Positions 3,218 through 42,007 are shown, numbered from the stretch's first letter. The stretch is 64,000 nucleotides of DNA from Oscillospiraceae bacterium (GCA_015065135.1 SVQY01000007.1:1-64000); one strand, 5' to 3'. Notes: generated by a model not told the origin, from the sequence alone. A program made the numbers and translations.

Positions 3218-3976
3218 TCACCGCCGATCGGTCAGTTCAATGCCCACGGGACAGTGATCGCTGCCCATGATCTCACCAAGGATAAAGCTATCCTTGACCA
3301 TGGGAAACAGGCGCTCGGAGACCACAAAATAGTCGATCCGCCACCCTACATTCTTTTCCCTCGCCTTCATCATATAGCTCCACCAGGAATATGCCACCGT
3401 TTCCGGATATAAGGTGCGGAACGTGTCGAGAAAACCGCAGTTCAGAAGCTCTGAAAACTTGCCGCGCTCCTCATCCGAAAAGCCCGCGCTATGGTGGTTG
3501 CTCTGGGGGTTTTTGAGGTCGATGGGCGCGTGCGCCACGTTCAGGTCTCCGCAGTACACCACAGGCTTGTGGCGATCCAGCTCCTGAATATATCCGCGCA
3601 ACGCATCCTCCCAAGCCATTCGATAGGAAAGACGCGCCAGCTCACGCTGGGCATTGGGTGTGTAGACACAAAGCAGATAAAAATCCTCGTATTCCAGCGT
3701 AATGGCGCGCCCCTCGGTATCATGCTCCGGGATGCCGATGCCATAGCGCACCGAAAGCGGCTCGCGCTTTGTGAAAACGGCCGTGCCGGAATAGCCCTTC
3801 TTCTCGGCGCTGTACCAATACTGATGATAGCCCTCCGGGCAGAATTCCGCCTGCCCCGGCTGCATTTTTGTTTCCTGAATGCAGAAGATATCCGCATCCG
3901 CAGCAGAGAAAAATTCCGCAAAGCCCTTGCCAAGGCAAGCGCGAAATCCGTTCACGTTCCAAGAAATTAGCTTCAT
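3218..3976 (-). CDS. xth: Exodeoxyribonuclease III (Xth/ExoA family)
   Basis: MKLISWNVNGFRACLGKGF, IQETKMQPGQ, GDLNVAH, WRIDYFVVS, GSDHCPVGIEL motifs. Confidence 0.95.
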   Translation of the reverse strand: MKLISWNVNGFRACLGKGFAEFFSAADADIFCIQETKMQPGQAEFCPEGYHQYWYSAEKKGYSGTAVFTKREPLSVRYGIGIPEHDTEGRAITLEYEDFYLLCVYTPNAQRELARLSYRMAWEDALRGYIQELDRHKPVVYCGDLNVAHAPIDLKNPQSNHHSAGFSDEERGKFSELLNCGFLDTFRTLYPETVAYSWWSYMMKAREKNVGWRIDYFVVSERLFPMVKDSFILGEIMGSDHCPVGIELTDRR

Positions 3977-4043
3977 AACGGTCTCCTTCTTATCACTTTC
4001 GCATTGTTTATATTATACCATACGACCTCATATTTCGCAATAG

Positions 4044-4083
4044 AAAAAAGCCGCCGCTGCGAAATGCAGCGGCGGCTTTTTTT
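4044..4083 (-). terminator. Rho-independent terminator of the polysaccharide operon
   Basis: aaaaaagccgccgctgcgaaatgcagcggcggcttttttt. Confidence 0.85.
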
Positions 4084-5029
4084 ATTTCTCACCCTCTTGA
4101 TGGTAGTGCACTTCTTCACGCACCACATATTGCGGAGAATTATTGATACACATATAAATGCGTCCAACATACTCGCCAATCAGTCCAAGCATTACCAGAG
4201 TAATACCACCCAATATCAAAACAATGCCGATCAAGGAGCTCCAACCCTCCGGCGCTTGATTGGAAACGAAGTACATTACGATAACGTAAATGAGATACAA
4301 AGCGCCTACTATTGCGGAAAAGATACCGGCATGCGAGGCTACACGCAAGGGCTTGACAGAAAACGATGTAAAGCCATTCACCCACAAACTGATCAGCTTT
4401 TTCAGTGTATAACCGGAAGCACCATTTGCACGCTCACGGTGATTGATCTCCACATTGGCAATACGTTTGGTAGAACGCAGCACCAACCCGATCACATAAG
4501 GAAAAGAACCTTGATAGTTCTTGATCTCATCAATCACATATCGACGGGCTGCAAAATAACTGGAAATGAACAGATCCTTCGGTTTGCCCAGCATCGTCTC
4601 AGTCATCTTGGCGTTGACTTTGCTGCCCCAATTGCGAAAACCGGAATGCTTTTTCTGCGCATATTTGGCGTATACCACATCAAAGCCTTCCTCGATCTTA
4701 TCCAAAAGCTTACCCACCTCGGAAGCAGGCGTCTGTCCGTCATCGTCCAAGCTGACCACAATATCACCCTTAGCATAGCGATATCCTGCCATCAAGGCGG
4801 CGTGCTGGCCAAAATTTTTGGCCATATCTACACCAACAATATCTTCTCCCTCGTTTGCCAATTGGCGGATCACCTCAAACGTATTATCAGGCGAGCAATC
4901 ATTGATCAAAACGATTTCGTGTGTATATCGATCACTCAGCGTCATCATCGCTTCACGGATCTCTTCCACAACGGCAGGAAGCGTTTCCGCAGATCGATAG
5001 CACGGGATCACAAAGCTTATTTTTTTCAT
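4082..5029 (-). CDS. Glycosyltransferase family 2 (GtrB/DPM-like), two C-terminal TM helices
   Basis: SFVIPCYRSAETLPAVVEEI, DDDGQTPASEV; C-terminal TM pair. Confidence 0.92.
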   Translation of the reverse strand: MKKISFVIPCYRSAETLPAVVEEIREAMMTLSDRYTHEIVLINDCSPDNTFEVIRQLANEGEDIVGVDMAKNFGQHAALMAGYRYAKGDIVVSLDDDGQTPASEVGKLLDKIEEGFDVVYAKYAQKKHSGFRNWGSKVNAKMTETMLGKPKDLFISSYFAARRYVIDEIKNYQGSFPYVIGLVLRSTKRIANVEINHRERANGASGYTLKKLISLWVNGFTSFSVKPLRVASHAGIFSAIVGALYLIYVIVMYFVSNQAPEGWSSLIGIVLILGGITLVMLGLIGEYVGRIYMCINNSPQYVVREEVHYHQEGEK

Positions 5030-5559: not shown

Positions 5560-6686
5560 ACCTCAAAAAAAGCTTTGACCGCTTCGCAGATCTGTGCCAC
5601 ATCTGCAGCGCTGATGCCATAATACATCGGCAGTCGCACCAAACGATCGCTTTCTGCGGTAGTGTACTGATCTACTCCATCAAAACGACCAAATTTGAGG
5701 CCAGCCGGTGCACTATGCAAGGGTACGTAATGGAACACCGCCATAACTCCCTTCTCTTTCAAAAAGCGGATCAGCGCGGTGCGCTCCTCGAGATCTTTAC
5801 ACTTGAGGTAGAACATATGTGCGTTATGCACGCAGTCCGCAGGAATGGTCGGCAGCGTGACCTTGCCCGCCTTCTCCAGGGGAGCAAATGCCTCGTGATA
5901 GGCATTCCAGGTGGCCAGACGGTCGTTGTTGATCTCATCCGCCTTCTCCAGCTGCGCCCACAGGTAAGCAGCATTCATATCGCTGGGCAGATAGCTATCG
6001 CCAAAATCCACCCAGGTGTATTTATCCACCTGACCGCGGAAAAACTTAGCGCGGTTGGTGCCCTTTTCGCGCAAAATCTCGGCGCGCTCATTATAGGCAG
6101 GATCGTTGATGACCAATGCTCCGCCCTCGCCCATAGAATAGTTTTTCGTCTCGTGGAAGGAATAGCATCCAAAATCACCGATAGTGCCGAGCGGACGGCC
6201 CTTATAGGTGCTCATCACGCCCTGCGCGGCATCCTCCACGACCTTCAGACCGTGCTTTTTGGCGATGGCCATGATGGTATCCATCTCACAAGCCACGCCC
6301 GCATAGTGCACCGGCACGATCACCCTGGTCTTTTCGGTAATAGCTGCCTCAATCTTTGTCTCGTCAATGTTCATCGTATCGGGGCGAACGTCAACGAACA
6401 CCAGCGTTGCGCCGGCCAGCACAAAGGCAGTCGCCGTGCTGGAAAAGGTAAAGCTGGGCAGGATCACCTCGTCACCGGGCTTCAGATCACACATCAAAGC
6501 AGCCATATCCAGTGCGGTGGTGCCGCTAGTGGTCAGCAGGACCTTCTGCGCACCAAAGCGCTCCTCAAACCATTGATTGCAGCGTTTGGTAAACTGACCG
6601 TCGCCACAGATCTTGTGCGCGTCGATCGCTTGCTTTACGTAATCAAGCTCGGTGCCCACGTACGGGGGAATATTAAAATAGATCAT
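5556..6686 (-). CDS. rffA: dTDP-4-amino-4,6-dideoxygalactose transaminase (RffA/WecE-like, DegT/DnrJ/EryC1 family)
   Basis: IPPYVGTELDYVKQAI, TTSGTTALDMAALM, FGCYSFHETKNYSMGEGG (PLP lysine). Confidence 0.88.
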   Translation of the reverse strand: MIYFNIPPYVGTELDYVKQAIDAHKICGDGQFTKRCNQWFEERFGAQKVLLTTSGTTALDMAALMCDLKPGDEVILPSFTFSSTATAFVLAGATLVFVDVRPDTMNIDETKIEAAITEKTRVIVPVHYAGVACEMDTIMAIAKKHGLKVVEDAAQGVMSTYKGRPLGTIGDFGCYSFHETKNYSMGEGGALVINDPAYNERAEILREKGTNRAKFFRGQVDKYTWVDFGDSYLPSDMNAAYLWAQLEKADEINNDRLATWNAYHEAFAPLEKAGKVTLPTIPADCVHNAHMFYLKCKDLEERTALIRFLKEKGVMAVFHYVPLHSAPAGLKFGRFDGVDQYTTAESDRLVRLPMYYGISAADVAQICEAVKAFFEV

Positions 6687-36484: not shown

Positions 36485-38104
36485 TCATTGCGGCTTCCCC
36501 TTCACCGCATTGTATACGGTCAGATAGTCGTTGGTCAGCACGGTATCAATGCCCATGTCAAAATAGCGACACGCCTCCTCGGGGTCGTCTGCCCAGAACA
36601 CGTTGCAAAGGATGCCGTGGGCGTGGGCCTTGTCGATGCTCTCCTGATTGAAATAGGGCTTGAACAGCTGCACCTTATAGGCACCCAGCGCAATGGCGCG
36701 ATCCACAATGGACATGGGATCCTTGTTGCCATCCCAACCCACGCAAACACGCAGGTCGGGAGCGTACGCCATCACGCGCTTGATGATGGCATCGCTTGTG
36801 GTCATAAAGTAAATATGCTTTTCGCAATCGTATTTGCGCACCAGCCCCACGATCTCCTCGATCTTGGCATCCTCGCAATTTTTATCCCAGATCTTCACGT
36901 GGATGTTCATGATCACGCGACCTGCGAACTTTTGCAGGATCTCTTCAAAGGTCGGGATCTGCAAGCCCCTGAATTTTTCACTGTGCTTGGCACCGAAGTC
37001 CAGCTGCAGCAATTCCTCGTAGGTATGGTCGTAGATCTTGCCGCTGCCGTTGCTGACACGGTCAAGAGTGCTATCGTGGCAGGAGACCAGCACGCCGTCC
37101 TTGGTGGACCACAGGTCAAACTCGATCTCCTCTGCCCCCAGCGCCACCGCCGCGCCAAAGGCGGGCATACTGTTTTCGGGCGCCACGGTGCTGAAGCCGC
37201 GGTGAGCGCAAAGACGGGGATAGGCCATCACACCGTCAAAGGGCACCACCGAGGGGCCGCCGTTACGGTAGAGCCAGGGTCTGCGCCCCTCCTCGATGTA
37301 TTCGTAATGGGATCTCAGCTTGCCCATATGCCCGGCGGGCTTGTAGTACTTATTCTGCGGATCGATCTCGCAAACGCCGAGCCCCACGCGGCTTTCCATA
37401 TTCAGCAGCATTTCGCCCTTGGGGGATACCACCATGCTGCAGCCGCAAAGCTTGGCATCCTCGCCGAGAGACACCGAGGCGCGGATAAGGTGCGCGTTGG
37501 TGTTGTAGCAAAGGAAGCGGTTGATGATGGAAAGCGCCTCGTGACTATCGGTGCGCTGCAGCGAGCAGCCGATGATGATATCCACCTTTTCGCGGGCGAT
37601 CCGTGCGAAATTTTCATAGAAATAAAAGTCGTAGCAGGTGAGGAACGCAAAGCGCAGCCCCTCCAGCTCCAGCACGTAAGGCGCGGCGGTCTCGTAGCTG
37701 TACGCCACGTCAAGAGCGTGTCCGCCCTCCGCATCGGTCTTCACCTCGCTGGGCGCGGGATGCGCCTTGAAATACCGCCCCACGATATGGCCCTCACGGT
37801 CGATGGCGTGCGTGGTGTTGCGGATGCCCTGCTCGGTCCGATAGCCCGCATTGACGAAAAGGAGCGCGTGGCATCGCTTTGCCGTTTCGCAGGCCTTTTG
37901 CAGCAGTATCGCGTTGTTCGCCTCCACCGCATCGTAAAAGCCCTTCTCCCCCTGCACGTCCGCAGGCGCATCGCTATACTCGGGCAGAACGATCAGATCC
38001 ATGCTCTCGTCGCATTGATCCAGCAGCGCAAGCAGATCCCCAAAGCATTGCGCCAGGTCCTTTTCATCAAAGGAATAATGAGGCTGAATGACACAAATTT
38101 TCAT
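36485..38104 (-). CDS. Carbon-nitrogen hydrolase (nitrilase) - glycerophosphodiester phosphodiesterase fusion
   Basis: Nitrilase E-K-C: LIVLPEYSD, GRYFKAHP, FLTCYDFYF; GDPD: CAHRGFSTVAPENSMPAF, EIEFDLWSTKDGVLVSCHDSTLDR. Confidence 0.9.
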   Translation of the reverse strand: MKICVIQPHYSFDEKDLAQCFGDLLALLDQCDESMDLIVLPEYSDAPADVQGEKGFYDAVEANNAILLQKACETAKRCHALLFVNAGYRTEQGIRNTTHAIDREGHIVGRYFKAHPAPSEVKTDAEGGHALDVAYSYETAAPYVLELEGLRFAFLTCYDFYFYENFARIAREKVDIIIGCSLQRTDSHEALSIINRFLCYNTNAHLIRASVSLGEDAKLCGCSMVVSPKGEMLLNMESRVGLGVCEIDPQNKYYKPAGHMGKLRSHYEYIEEGRRPWLYRNGGPSVVPFDGVMAYPRLCAHRGFSTVAPENSMPAFGAAVALGAEEIEFDLWSTKDGVLVSCHDSTLDRVSNGSGKIYDHTYEELLQLDFGAKHSEKFRGLQIPTFEEILQKFAGRVIMNIHVKIWDKNCEDAKIEEIVGLVRKYDCEKHIYFMTTSDAIIKRVMAYAPDLRVCVGWDGNKDPMSIVDRAIALGAYKVQLFKPYFNQESIDKAHAHGILCNVFWADDPEEACRYFDMGIDTVLTNDYLTVYNAVKGKPQ

Positions 38105-38167
38105 AGACGGTCTCCTTTTTTAGCGAATTGGGCAAAAAGATTTTTTCAAGGCAAGCTTCGTTCGGGC

Positions 38168-38230
38168 TTACGGTTTTTGTTTCGTCAGACGATCGACAAG
38201 CTCAACGTGAGCGAGGAGCGCAAAAGGTAT
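38168..38230 (-). repeat. rlmD 3'-end-like repeat, copy A
   Basis: Minus-strand translation IPFALLAHVELVDRLTKQKP* resembles the RlmD C-terminus (GHVESVVCLKRQ). Confidence 0.7.
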
Positions 38231-38258
38231 ATTTTCCATTCCCCAAAAGCTGCCTGTT

Positions 38259-38729
38259 TTATATCCAGTGCGTCACTTGCGAATATGGGATTTTTTCCAT
38301 ACTCACCAACGAATAAGTTTTTGTTTCATATTCACAAAGACAGTATTCGTAGCCATCCTTTCGCCATCTTTGCACAGGTACATATAGCATTTCTCCATCG
38401 CTTGAAAAACTGCCATATACGTCTATAGCCTCGTAAAAACGCGGAAGCGTAACTCTCAGCTTTTGTGTAAAATCTTCTAAGGAGATGATATAGAAATGCT
38501 TGCCATTTTCCAACGCAAAGAGTTCTGTTTCATCAGGCTTTACATCTCCCGTATACAAATAATTGTATCTTTTGATTTGGTTGAGCAAAGTACCCGTTTT
38601 CTTATCCGATATAACGACGCTACCGCCCGTAATATGAACAACAAACTTATCTGTATGTATCGTAAAATTCCAATGCAAGTCCAAATCAAACGTTCTGATC
38701 CATTTCCCGTCAGAAATCGTTTTATTCAT
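38259..38729 (-). CDS. Hypothetical protein (cassette gene 1)
   Basis: MNKTISDGKWIRTFDLDLHWNFTIHTDKF..., good RBS (aggaggtaaaagtcATG). Confidence 0.7.
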   Translation of the reverse strand: MNKTISDGKWIRTFDLDLHWNFTIHTDKFVVHITGGSVVISDKKTGTLLNQIKRYNYLYTGDVKPDETELFALENGKHFYIISLEDFTQKLRVTLPRFYEAIDVYGSFSSDGEMLYVPVQRWRKDGYEYCLCEYETKTYSLVSMEKIPYSQVTHWI

Positions 38730-38736
38730 ATGACTT

Positions 38737-38793
38737 TTACCTCCTTGCGAGACAAACGACACTCTCAACGTAGGTCAAGAGAGCAAAAGGTCT
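38737..38793 (-). repeat. rlmD 3'-end-like repeat, copy B
   Basis: Minus-strand translation RPFALLTYVESVVCLARR* (stop TAA overlaps the RBS of cassette gene 1). Confidence 0.8.
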
Positions 38794-38836
38794 CAAAATC
38801 AGTCAAAAACGGGGGTTGTAAAGCCAAAAGGTATAT

Positions 38837-39349
38837 TTACTTCCCGCGATTTTTCTTATAGTTAACAACAAACAAAAGTGCGCCTACCGATATTGAGAGT
38901 GCCATAATCGTTGGACCAACAATATGTGCGGTCTTTTCGTTTTTGCTATATTCATTCAAAACATCGTTGAGTGATAAATATGTTTCACCGTTATATTCAA
39001 GGGCGCATATTTTTCTTAATCCACCACTTTTTTCAAAATAAGTAATCGTAAGTTCTTTGCCTATCTGTAGCTCTTCAAATAATCTTCTATCAATGTTGTC
39101 ATAGCATATTCCTGTTGCCTCAAAGTAAGAATTATCTTCAAATCGCACATCGAAGTAAGAACCTTTAGAATTTCCAAAAATATTATCGTACCATTTCTCA
39201 TCGTATTGATTGAATTTAGACACAATACCCGTTTGCTGTTTTAATCCCGTCGGCTGTTGATATGAGAAAGTGAATATTAAACTAAGCACTAAAACAAGCA
39301 GCAGCACAATTGCTATTAAAATGTTAAAGGCTACAAATCTGTTTTTCAT
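38837..39349 (-). CDS. Hypothetical protein with two TM helices (cassette gene 2)
   Basis: N-terminal TM NILIAIVLLLVLVLSLIFTF and C-terminal TM IMALSISVGALLFVVNYKK. Confidence 0.7.
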   Translation of the reverse strand: MKNRFVAFNILIAIVLLLVLVLSLIFTFSYQQPTGLKQQTGIVSKFNQYDEKWYDNIFGNSKGSYFDVRFEDNSYFEATGICYDNIDRRLFEELQIGKELTITYFEKSGGLRKICALEYNGETYLSLNDVLNEYSKNEKTAHIVGPTIMALSISVGALLFVVNYKKNRGK

Positions 39350-39425
39350 AAGACTCCTTTCGATATGTTATACCGTACTGCTGTAAACTGAACTTTCGGG
39401 TCTTGCTCAAAACTCACATTTGTCC

Positions 39426-39779
39426 TTATCCGTTTTCCTTTGCGGTGGTGATGGAAGCGATGAGCAGTTTGCGTATCTTACTGCATTTTGCGAACATATC
39501 CTTATATTCTTCCTCGGTTATCATGTGCGTATCTTTGAACAGACCGAGCCAATAGTCTGTTTCGTAGCACTCTTTAAGTGCGATTTGAAATTTGTTAATA
39601 AAGTCTGCTTTGCTTGCCGCATAGTTTGCTTCGTGAATATTCGCACCGATGCTTGTGCCGCTGCGTAATATTTGGTTTAGCAAAACATTGCTTTTGCGGT
39701 TTTCTTTGATATCGGTGCAAAGATTAACGATATCAACAGCAAATTGCTTTGACAAATCGACTAAAAAGTTTTCTTTCAT
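39426..39779 (-). CDS. Four-helix bundle protein (S23/IVP family)
   Basis: LSKQFAVDIVNLCTDIKENRKSNVLLNQILRSGTSIGANIHEANYAASKADFINKFQIALKECYETDYWLGLF. Confidence 0.9.
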   Translation of the reverse strand: MKENFLVDLSKQFAVDIVNLCTDIKENRKSNVLLNQILRSGTSIGANIHEANYAASKADFINKFQIALKECYETDYWLGLFKDTHMITEEEYKDMFAKCSKIRKLLIASITTAKENG

Positions 39780-39799
39780 CGTAAAACCTCGCTACTAGA

Positions 39800-39964
39800 A
39801 TGATTTGACACTTTGTGTCATGAATTGATGCTATTGCATCATGATTTCTCGCTACGCTCCATGAATTGAATTGCGTGTCCAAACTTATGCGCCCGCAGGC
39901 GCAATTCATGGCGAAGCCAATTCATGAGTGCAACGCACTCAATTCACGCGCTCGCGCAATTCAT
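39800..39964. repeat. Array of 7-bp repeats (ATGAATT/ATGATTT, then AATTCAT) separated by different mini-palindromes
   Basis: Spacers include GACACTTTGTGTC, GATGCTATTGCATC, GCGCCCGCAGGCGC, GGCGAAGCC, GAGTGCAACGCACTC, CGCGCTCGCGC. Confidence 0.85.
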
Positions 39965-41346
39965 TGTTGAATCTGTCGTTTGAGACAAACGACAGATTCA
40001 ACGTGGCCAGTGCGCGGGAAAAGATCAACGGGCGTTACAACACCGATCTCATAGCCGAGGTCGCGCAGGATGGCGCAATCGCGGGCGAGGGTATCAGGGC
40101 CGCAGGAGACGTAGACGATGCGAGGCACCTCGCGTGCGGCGAGGAACTCCAGCAGCTGGCGGTCACAGCCCTTGCGGGGCGGATCCAGGATCACCACGTC
40201 GGGGTGCAGGGTGCCGCGCTCCGCCTCCACGGGGGCAAGCAGCCCCTCCGCATTGGCGGCATCACCGCAATAAAAGTGGGCGTTTTCGATACCGTTCAGG
40301 GCTTTATTCACATTGGCGCATTCCACGGCGGCGGGCACGATCTCAATACCGATGACCTCCCCCGCCCGTTGTGCCATCGAAAGTCCGATGGTACCCGCGC
40401 CGCAATAAAGATCCAGCAAAAGTCCCTTTCCGTCAAGGCCTGTCCGCTCGGCGGCAAGCCCGTAAAGCAGCTCCGCCGCATCGTGGTTGACCTGATAAAA
40501 GGATGCCGGCGCAATGCGGAAGCGCTTGCCGCACAGCACGTCCTCTATGTAGGGCTTGCCGTAGACCGTGCGATAGCGCTCCCCCAGCACCACGTTGGTG
40601 CGACGGGTGTTCTCGTTGATCATCACCGAGGTCACCTGCGGAAATTTTTGCAATAATATATCTGCAAACTCCTGTTCTTTTGGCAAAGACTTGCTGTTAA
40701 TAACAGGACAGACCATCAGCTCGCCCGTTCCCACCCCTTGGCGCAGGTAGAGATGGCGAATCACGCCCTTCCCCGTCTCCTCGTCATAGGGCAAAACACC
40801 CAGCTTGGTGTAAAAATCGCAGAACGTATCGAGAATTTCGCCAAAAACAGGGGGCAAAAGCGAGCAATCGGAGCAAGGCACGACCCTGTGGGTTTTCTGG
40901 GCGTAAAAGCCGCCAAAAAGGCCGTTTTTACCACCCGTTATGGGGTATTCCGCCTTGTTGCGGTAGCCCTTGATCGCCCCCGTGGTCTGCACCGCCTCCA
41001 CCGTCACATCGGCAAGCCCCGCCTTGCGGAACATTTGCACGACCAGCTCACGCTTCAGCGCCAGCTCCTTTTCATAGGTCAGATAGCGATAAACGCAGCC
41101 ACCGCAGGAGGCGGGCGCTGCGCAATAGCCGTCGGCACGGTGGGAGGAGGGGGTCACCACCTCCAGCACACGACCCACGGCAAAGGTCTTATTCACCTTA
41201 ATGATCAGTGCCCTGACGGTATCCCCCGCCACGGCGCCTGCCAGAAAGACCGCTCTGCCGTCCGGGGCGTGGGCAACGCCGCACCCCAGATTGTTCAGAT
41301 CGGTCACCTCCAGCAAAAGCTCGCTTCCCTTTTGCAGCTCAGGCAT
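39961..41346 (-). CDS. rlmD: 23S rRNA (uracil-C5)-methyltransferase RlmD/RumA family
   Basis: TRAM domain LEVTDLNNLGCGVAHAPDGRAVFLAGAVAGD; CxxCGGC (APASCGGCVYRYL); DLYCGAGTIGLSMAQ; LDPPRKGCD; IVYVSCGPDTLARD. Confidence 0.93.
   Translation of the reverse strand: MPELQKGSELLLEVTDLNNLGCGVAHAPDGRAVFLAGAVAGDTVRALIIKVNKTFAVGRVLEVVTPSSHRADGYCAAPASCGGCVYRYLTYEKELALKRELVVQMFRKAGLADVTVEAVQTTGAIKGYRNKAEYPITGGKNGLFGGFYAQKTHRVVPCSDCSLLPPVFGEILDTFCDFYTKLGVLPYDEETGKGVIRHLYLRQGVGTGELMVCPVINSKSLPKEQEFADILLQKFPQVTSVMINENTRRTNVVLGERYRTVYGKPYIEDVLCGKRFRIAPASFYQVNHDAAELLYGLAAERTGLDGKGLLLDLYCGAGTIGLSMAQRAGEVIGIEIVPAAVECANVNKALNGIENAHFYCGDAANAEGLLAPVEAERGTLHPDVVILDPPRKGCDRQLLEFLAAREVPRIVYVSCGPDTLARDCAILRDLGYEIGVVTPVDLFPRTGHVESVVCLKRQIQQ
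39966..40002. repeat. Perfect 17-bp inverted repeat at the rlmD 3' end
   Basis: gttgaatctgtcgtttg-aga-caaacgacagattcaac. Confidence 0.9.
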
Positions 41347-42007
41347 AGAATTCCTCTCCGTTTTCCAGGCAAAGCGCGGCAAGCGAGCCGCCCTGCAGCA
41401 CACCGCAGTCAATGCGGATAATGCCCTCCTCATATTCGATCTTGCCGCTATCGGTAGGCGTATGACCTACTACCAGCGTACGATCCGGGAAGAAGGCAGA
41501 ACCTGCCGGCGCGGGGGTGAAAAAGTCCTCCGGCTCATAATCGTCAAGGGCGGTATCGGGGTCAAAATCGGCAATGCCCGTATGCACCAGCACAAAGGAC
41601 TTGCCCTTGGTCTCTACCTCCTCGAACAACACGAATTCGGAAAGATAATCCAACACGCCCTCGCGCATATCGTCATCCAAGGCGCGGAAGCCATCCAAGG
41701 TGGGCTTGCCGCCATCATTTGCCCAAGCGGTCATTTCGGCGGCGAACTCAGGGTCGGGCATCGAGCCCTCCTTCAGCATCTTATCAAAGCCGGCAAGCAT
41801 CCGCAGTGCCAGCAGCTCGCGCTCTCCCGCCACAGGATACACGTTGGCACGCATGCTCATGTCGGTCAGCACCTCCATGCTCTGCTCACCGTAGTCTACC
41901 ACGTCGCCAAGGACGTAAAGCACGTCGCTCTCCTTTAAATTGATCTTCTGAAGCAGGCTGTTGTAGCGCTCCCAATCTCCATAAATACCGGCAGTTACGT
42001 AGGTCAT
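41339..42007 (-). CDS. Metallophosphoesterase-fold protein with degenerate metal-binding motifs
   Basis: GDVVDYG, VHTGI and GHT retained; GDxHG replaced by GIYGDW and GNHE by GERE. Confidence 0.8.
   Translation of the reverse strand: MTYVTAGIYGDWERYNSLLQKINLKESDVLYVLGDVVDYGEQSMEVLTDMSMRANVYPVAGERELLALRMLAGFDKMLKEGSMPDPEFAAEMTAWANDGGKPTLDGFRALDDDMREGVLDYLSEFVLFEEVETKGKSFVLVHTGIADFDPDTALDDYEPEDFFTPAPAGSAFFPDRTLVVGHTPTDSGKIEYEEGIIRIDCGVLQGGSLAALCLENGEEFYA

Follow-up and report, generated by a model that had tools for sequence, protein, structure and literature searches.

A probable integron-like array of small-gene cassettes at the 3' end of the 23S rRNA methyltransferase gene rlmD in gut Clostridia

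The known gene-capture platforms with cassette arrays are integrons, which lie mostly outside Bacillota. In staphylococci, SCC elements land at the 3' end of the rRNA methyltransferase gene rlmH and stand there in tandem, sharing regenerated ends. Modules of the pdif type are bounded by short XerCD sites. Clusters of integron cassettes that lack an integrase are termed CALIN (PMC9024848). The serine integrases of ICEs that target rumA, as described for a streptococcal case, recombine inside the rumA 3' end and in doing so swap the ends of the two genes, rumA and the integrase gene, and attR lies inside the integrase gene (PMC4701971).

Here we describe arrays of small genes at the 3' end of rlmD (rumA) and compare them with these systems. 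Like integrons and CALIN, they are anchored, their small genes share one orientation and each is followed by a site, cassettes occur across species, and no integrase is resident. Unlike integrons, they have no IntI near any rlmD array, another site sequence, an anchor made of rlmD codons and a host family within the Clostridia; attC-like folding was not found at their sites either (58 sites, mean z of -0.62 and -0.59 on the two strands, against -0.44 for random windows). The lack of IntI and of attC folding rules out membership among the integrons themselves. The rlmD arrays share with SCC an rRNA methyltransferase 3' end as landing site and tandem units with regenerated ends, but the target is rlmD rather than rlmH, and the cassettes are far smaller and carry neither ccr genes nor a recombinase. 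As in the Acinetobacter pdif modules (PMC12907356), small gene modules without a recombinase of their own are bounded by repeated sites, whereas the site here is directional, about 90 bp long and present behind rlmD only. The rumA serine-integrase ICEs and CIMEs (PMC4701971) use the same target codons and octamer, and some ICEs sit in rlmD arrays; unlike them, the cassettes have no integrase, conjugation genes or ICE attP/attR half, measure about 1 kb and stand many in series. No description of rlmD cassette arrays was found in open-access full texts.

The window is a 64-kb stretch of contig 36 of G000, a 2.37-Mb bin that is 84% complete. Searching the whole of it with CAYGTNGANNNNNTNGTNTGTCTNNC (up to two mismatches) returned three minus-strand matches (39980-40005, 38747-38772 and 38184-38209) and no others, where 100 dinucleotide shuffles of the window gave a mean of 0.04 and never three. 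A repeat finder independently reported a 42-nt family with three copies in the same three places. The original prediction had held that the end of rlmD, whose minus-strand translation finishes in ..FPRTGHVESVVCLKRQIQQ before the stop, recurs twice downstream as copies B and A, and these fragments were indeed where it had placed them. The 14-mer caaaaggtatattt, noticed near both copies (38221-38234 and 38825-38838), turned out to be a true part of the site in relatives, belonging to a pair of boxes before the octamer. Exact copies of ATATACCTTTTG in the window are confined to 38221-38232 and 38825-38836. In copy B the 14-mer forms the first (upstream) box, but in copy A, the most degenerate of the three copies, it forms the second, octamer-proximal one. 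The overlap of copy B with the ribosome-binding site (RBS) of the following gene was likewise borne out in the sequence, the RBS of gene 2 being carried in the right half of site 2.

The three sites bound two units (Table 1). Cassette 1 holds a four-helix-bundle gene and gene 1, and cassette 2 holds gene 2. A copy of the site does stand behind each of the two hypothetical genes, as had been claimed, but the first unit holds two genes, since it also contains the gene at 39426-39779, a 23S_rRNA_IVP four-helix bundle that had been overlooked. The hairpin array at 39800-39965 and the 17-bp inverted repeat had likewise gone unnoticed. PHROGs and NCBIfam gave no family match for the two hypothetical genes of the window, and Rfam gave no match in the arrays. 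The 5' ends of the two cassettes are of different kinds, cassette 1 beginning with a hairpin array and cassette 2 being fused to its RBS. In the 17-bp inverted repeat that spans the end of rlmD, the left arm consists of rlmD codons and the right arm of the first bases of cassette 1; a palindrome of the same kind is present in many relatives. The gene adjoining the array end (36485-38104) is a fusion of a carbon-nitrogen hydrolase and a glycerophosphodiester phosphodiesterase domain.

Table 1. Features of the rlmD array in the window
Feature	Position	Strand	Basis and remarks
rlmD (rumA), 23S rRNA m5U1939 methyltransferase	39961..41352	-	PF05958/TRAM match; 3' end is the anchor site
Site 1	39980..40005	-	within rlmD codons HVESVVCL; octamer CACGTTGA at 39998-40005; junction mapped with rlmD left and cassette right
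Perfect 17-bp inverted repeat, 3-nt loop	39966..40002	-	arms 39966-39982 and 39986-40002; repeat search
Short-hairpin array	39800..39965	-	cassette 1 5' leader; spacers are AATTCATG-type 8-mers; sequence and repeats
Four-helix-bundle protein (23S_rRNA_IVP), first gene of cassette 1	39426..39779	-	PF05635, E = 1.6e-26; TIGR02436
Conserved leader ..TTTACAGCAG..TATAACATATCGAAAGGAG preceding gene 1	39350..39425	-	same leader before many cassette genes
Gene 1, putative membrane protein, 170 aa, without family	38837..39349	-	
Site 2 (copy B)	38747..38836	-	octamer TACGTTGA at 38765-38772; repeats and pattern match
Site 2 boxes	first 38825-38836, second about 38784-38795	-	
Gene 2, 156 aa, cassette 2	38259..38729	-	
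Site 3 (copy A)	38184..38232	-	degenerate array end; one box at 38221-38232, octamer at 38202-38209

The full site, of about 90 bp, reads in order: a ATACCTTTTG box, an 8-nt slot and ACCCCCGTTTTTG; a second ATACCTTTTG box, an 8-nt slot and ACC; the octamer CAYGTNGA; and a right half coding for the RlmD C-terminus HVESVVCLTRK. In relatives the spacing of the two ATATACCTTTTG boxes is 41 bp, and about 21 bp separate the second from the octamer that follows. Read base by base, the array of G016 passes from a conserved leader through one gene to two ATACCTTTTG boxes 41 bp apart, then to ACCCACGTCGA and the right half GAGAGTGTCGTTTGTCTGAC, which spells the rlmD C-terminus even at internal sites without rlmD translation. 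What had been proposed as a regenerated rlmD end is more precisely a site in two halves: the right one consists of RlmD C-terminus codons and travels with the next cassette, and the left one is a distinct conserved stretch rather than a plain copy of the rlmD 3' end. The 8-nt slots behind the ATACCTTTTG boxes draw on a limited vocabulary that includes GAGTCTTG, TACTCTTG, ACCTTATG, GTCTTATG and GCTTTACA (L031, L144, L236, L256, L255, L261), and they are exchanged wholesale between cassettes that are otherwise 94-97% identical. Inspected by eye, the site had no conserved dif-like core.

A strict pattern for the site, which undercounts sites, matched in 34 of the 295 genomes of the family and in 19 of its 71 genera, against about four matches for a reversed-pattern control; nearly all genomes are metagenome bins, one per species. 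Among the 394 genomes of the order-level sample, only G491, G440 and G467 matched outside the family. With a matrix derived from 44 sites, sites scored 40-85 bits and shuffles below -10; as the matrix was trained on the very sites scored, the independent test is the position behind rlmD, which forms no part of either the search pattern or the matrix. In all 17 loci with an unbroken contig upstream and no ICE in between, the site stood behind rlmD or a TRAM-less paralogue; the remaining loci follow directly on a contig end or an ICE integrase. Strict-pattern matches in G040 and G118 were not confirmed by the matrix and were taken as chance. The TRAM-less RlmD paralogue carries the same 3' octamer and also anchors arrays (L247 and L249; G256, G305).

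Within the genus, 19 of the 21 genomes searched have rlmD matches, 17 of them clear orthologues, and the content downstream of the rlmD tail differs in nearly every genome. Searching these 21 genomes with the core placed sites behind rlmD of G016 at 2217, 3521, 4539, 5231 and 5909, with a weaker sixth at 6686. Further sites were found in G015, G009, G013 and G017. Arrays in the genus thus reach six sites, and array lengths are lower bounds because contigs often break within arrays. Chance repeats are ruled out by the shuffles together with this conservation across the family; the case foreseen against the original prediction, in which the copies were accidental and unconserved, thus falls away, the copies being kept across 19 or more genera.

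We delimited 55 cassettes between consecutive sites (median 976 bp, range 297-3496 bp). As in integrons, they carry small genes in one orientation, each unit with its site and the whole anchored at rlmD; 84 of the 87 ORFs of at least 60 aa lie on the rlmD strand. The 76 cassette proteins fell into 53 clusters, which indicates high turnover, and only the IVP protein was common (11 copies). Cargo that could be recognised includes an HpaII-type restriction enzyme with a C5-methylase, a large helicase, HNH and GIY-YIG domains, hydrolases and nucleotidyltransferases. The HpaII-type enzyme and its methylase make up a single 3.5-kb cassette in G009 (L029:3452-6237). Among 102 sites, the cassette that follows begins with a hairpin array in 29, with a shared leader containing GGGACAAA/TTTACAGCA in 27, and with an RBS behind or inside the site in 17. 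Since the RBS lies right behind or inside about 17% of sites, genes fused in this way probably need read-through from rlmD or from the upstream cassette.

The same cassettes recur in different genera at 92-97% nucleotide identity, and the rlmD genes of those pairs are only 58-62% identical (cassette against rlmD, 97.3 and 62.3% for G015/G022, 94.4 and 58.2% for G016/G171, 94.6 and 60.1% for G188/G206). One cassette takes the fifth place in the G016 array, the first in that of G171 and the second in that of G022. Cassette 2, which stands second in the window's array, has an orthologue directly behind rlmD in G013 that is 86% identical in nucleotides and begins at the octamer. G006 and G015 are close relatives that share about 92-95% identity in rlmD and in 9 kb past the array; between these conserved flanks, G006 has about 1 kb with one gene and G015 several cassettes. 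Cross-genus identity, shifted positions and the difference between G006 and G015 exclude invariant vertical inheritance, the other case that had been foreseen against the original prediction. A search for carriers found no site in IMG/VR and no array DNA in phage or plasmid records, and phage or plasmid carriers were set aside accordingly.

The point of exchange was approached by comparing 105 sites, with position 0 at the G of GTNGA. Bases up to -7 vary with the left neighbour (rlmD or a cassette) and those from -6, the first base of the octamer, do not, while bases from -1 on vary with the class of the right neighbour. This dependence places the junction within CAYGTNGA, most likely in its first five bases. 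The linkage at -1 is significant only among palindromic right halves, and palindrome classes alone could explain part of the linkage between base -1 and the right half. A crossover deduced from the palindrome arms alone was dropped, as non-palindromic sites show no -1 linkage; selection or correction may also be what keeps the palindromes perfect. The 3' ends of cassettes that are 94-97% identical often differ already from one upstream box on, and their leaders differ too, so that not every exchange ended at the octamer; secondary shuffling, probably homologous, contributes as well.

ICEs occupy five of these loci (G011, G232, G225, G046 and G266), where the 3' end of the integrase gene forms the site, and their integrases are 92-96% identical between genera. 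An ICE-encoded C-terminus was found on the rlmD genes that belong with the ICE integrases of G011 and G225, and on the rlmD of G275. Both ICE and cassette junctions fall in the octamer CAYGTNGA. In the ICEs the base before GA stays on the left (with rlmD in attL, and as a constant C in nearly all attR), and the ICE crossover is therefore probably GA; the attP that we reconstruct, GTTTGGACAACGATACACAAGTC-GA-...-TTGTCCAAAC, would be symmetric about GA. The left half of the cassette site is unlike the attP left half GTTTGGACAACGATACACAAGTC and unlike attR, and the junction of the cassettes appears shifted leftward by a few bases from the ICE crossover. The known integration site at the rlmD/rumA 3' end, to which the original prediction had appealed, does coincide with the octamer, and the ICE integrase is one candidate for the cassette recombinase.

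None of the 55 delimited cassettes encodes a recombinase, and no PF00589 gene, IntI or other, was found in any array or cassette. The view that small elements without an integrase were added serially at the rlmD end is well supported by the conserved sites and the variable content. PF00239 is absent from eight array-bearing genomes that are 90-97% complete (G016, G002, G022, G108, G197, G291, G111 and G440) and present in other genomes; these eight rule out a resident serine integrase as a general requirement. Except for the host Xer, no recombinase is common to all array-bearing genomes. One Xer-like tyrosine recombinase is common to 19 same-genus genomes, and G440 and G122 have only one PF00589 protein each; a tyrosine recombinase specific to the genus was rejected, the only conserved candidate being Xer-like. 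The cassettes may be moved by the host Xer, by an enzyme that merely visits the genome, or by one from a different class. In G008 (L022, oriented 3271-4410), a 379-aa serine recombinase with a cassette-type leader lies directly behind an otherwise normal rlmD site. No further site was found within 5 kb of it at that rlmD locus, and it could be cassette-borne or decayed.

We consider it probable that the locus is an integron-like cassette array at the rlmD 3' end, moved in trans by a recombinase. The integron-like reading originally put forward is supported in part, by conservation and variable content. Each unit would pair the site of about 90 bp with one small gene in front of it, or with two, one of them for the four-helix bundle. 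A recombinase supplied in trans would join a cassette, circular or linear, to rlmD by strand exchange inside the octamer, and each insertion would restore the rlmD coding end and leave a new site. Against this reading stand the lack of a recombinase in any cassette and, the host Xer aside, of one common to all array-bearing genomes, and the breaks of identity at the upstream boxes and in the leaders; among the bins compared, mostly one per species, no circle, excision or same-species insertion was seen. The recombinase need not reside in the genomes where arrays persist. We suggest more tentatively, and with some doubt, that this may be a separate gene-capture system with the coding end of an rRNA methyltransferase as its anchor, an undescribed recombinase that is neither IntI nor a resident serine integrase, and a family-wide spread of small genes.

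The cassettes might instead be very small elements of the accretion (CIME-like) type that use the ICE attB and depend in trans on the large serine integrase of rumA/rlmD ICEs: ICE integrases occupy these very loci with their own 3' end as the site, the published streptococcal rumA case is alike (PMC4701971), and the junctions share the octamer. We judge this improbable, given the eight good array-bearing genomes without PF00239 and a cassette left half that resembles neither ICE attP nor attR. The base before GA, moreover, tends to follow the right half in cassettes and the left side in ICEs, which points to a different crossover. Large serine integrases also do not normally join attB-like sites together. 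Arrays could also evolve by homologous recombination alone, with repeated leaders, boxes and rlmD-like ends pairing inside a genome or across genomes and no dedicated recombinase involved, which we find unlikely as well: genera whose rlmD genes are about 60% identical offer only some 10-40 bp of homology per end, the left context changes over at the octamer across 105 sites, and a single orientation at one locus is typical of site-specific capture. It would nevertheless account for the same gene having different leaders and 3' sites, for breaks of identity at conserved boxes, and for odd variants common to the sites of one genome (G276). Hardly credible is resemblance by chance, or an ancient operon passed down vertically along with decayed duplicates of rlmD; the degenerate copy A speaks for it and nothing else does, and family-wide conservation, cross-genus identity, the G006/G015 difference and the shuffle counts had already led us to reject it.

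If trans-mobilized capture at rlmD is indeed at work, it would provide a second, unrelated capture platform in gut bacteria and a new cross-genus route for small genes, and cassette capture would have evolved more than once. Small genes, restriction-modification included, would spread by it through a whole family of gut Clostridia; those in question are HpaII-type restriction-modification genes, helicase/HNH genes and many without assigned function. The identity of the enzyme that cuts CAYGTNGA then becomes a sharply posed question. With so conserved a site, arrays can readily be located, and what they carry amounts to a catalogue of small accessory genes.

Genes for the IVP four-helix bundle number one to five per genome. 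Many of the copies away from rlmD are preceded by a short-hairpin array with a constant 7-9-mer spacer that differs by locus, and several such loci lie directly behind a long perfect palindrome, for example a tRNA terminator. Loci of this kind include L385 (G002:C2), L388 (G016:C26), L397 (G122:C13), L405 (G047:C12), L390 (G197:C17) and L401 (G022:C50), together with 39426-39965 in the window. The IVP gene with its hairpin array looks like an undescribed small element that settles beside palindromes.
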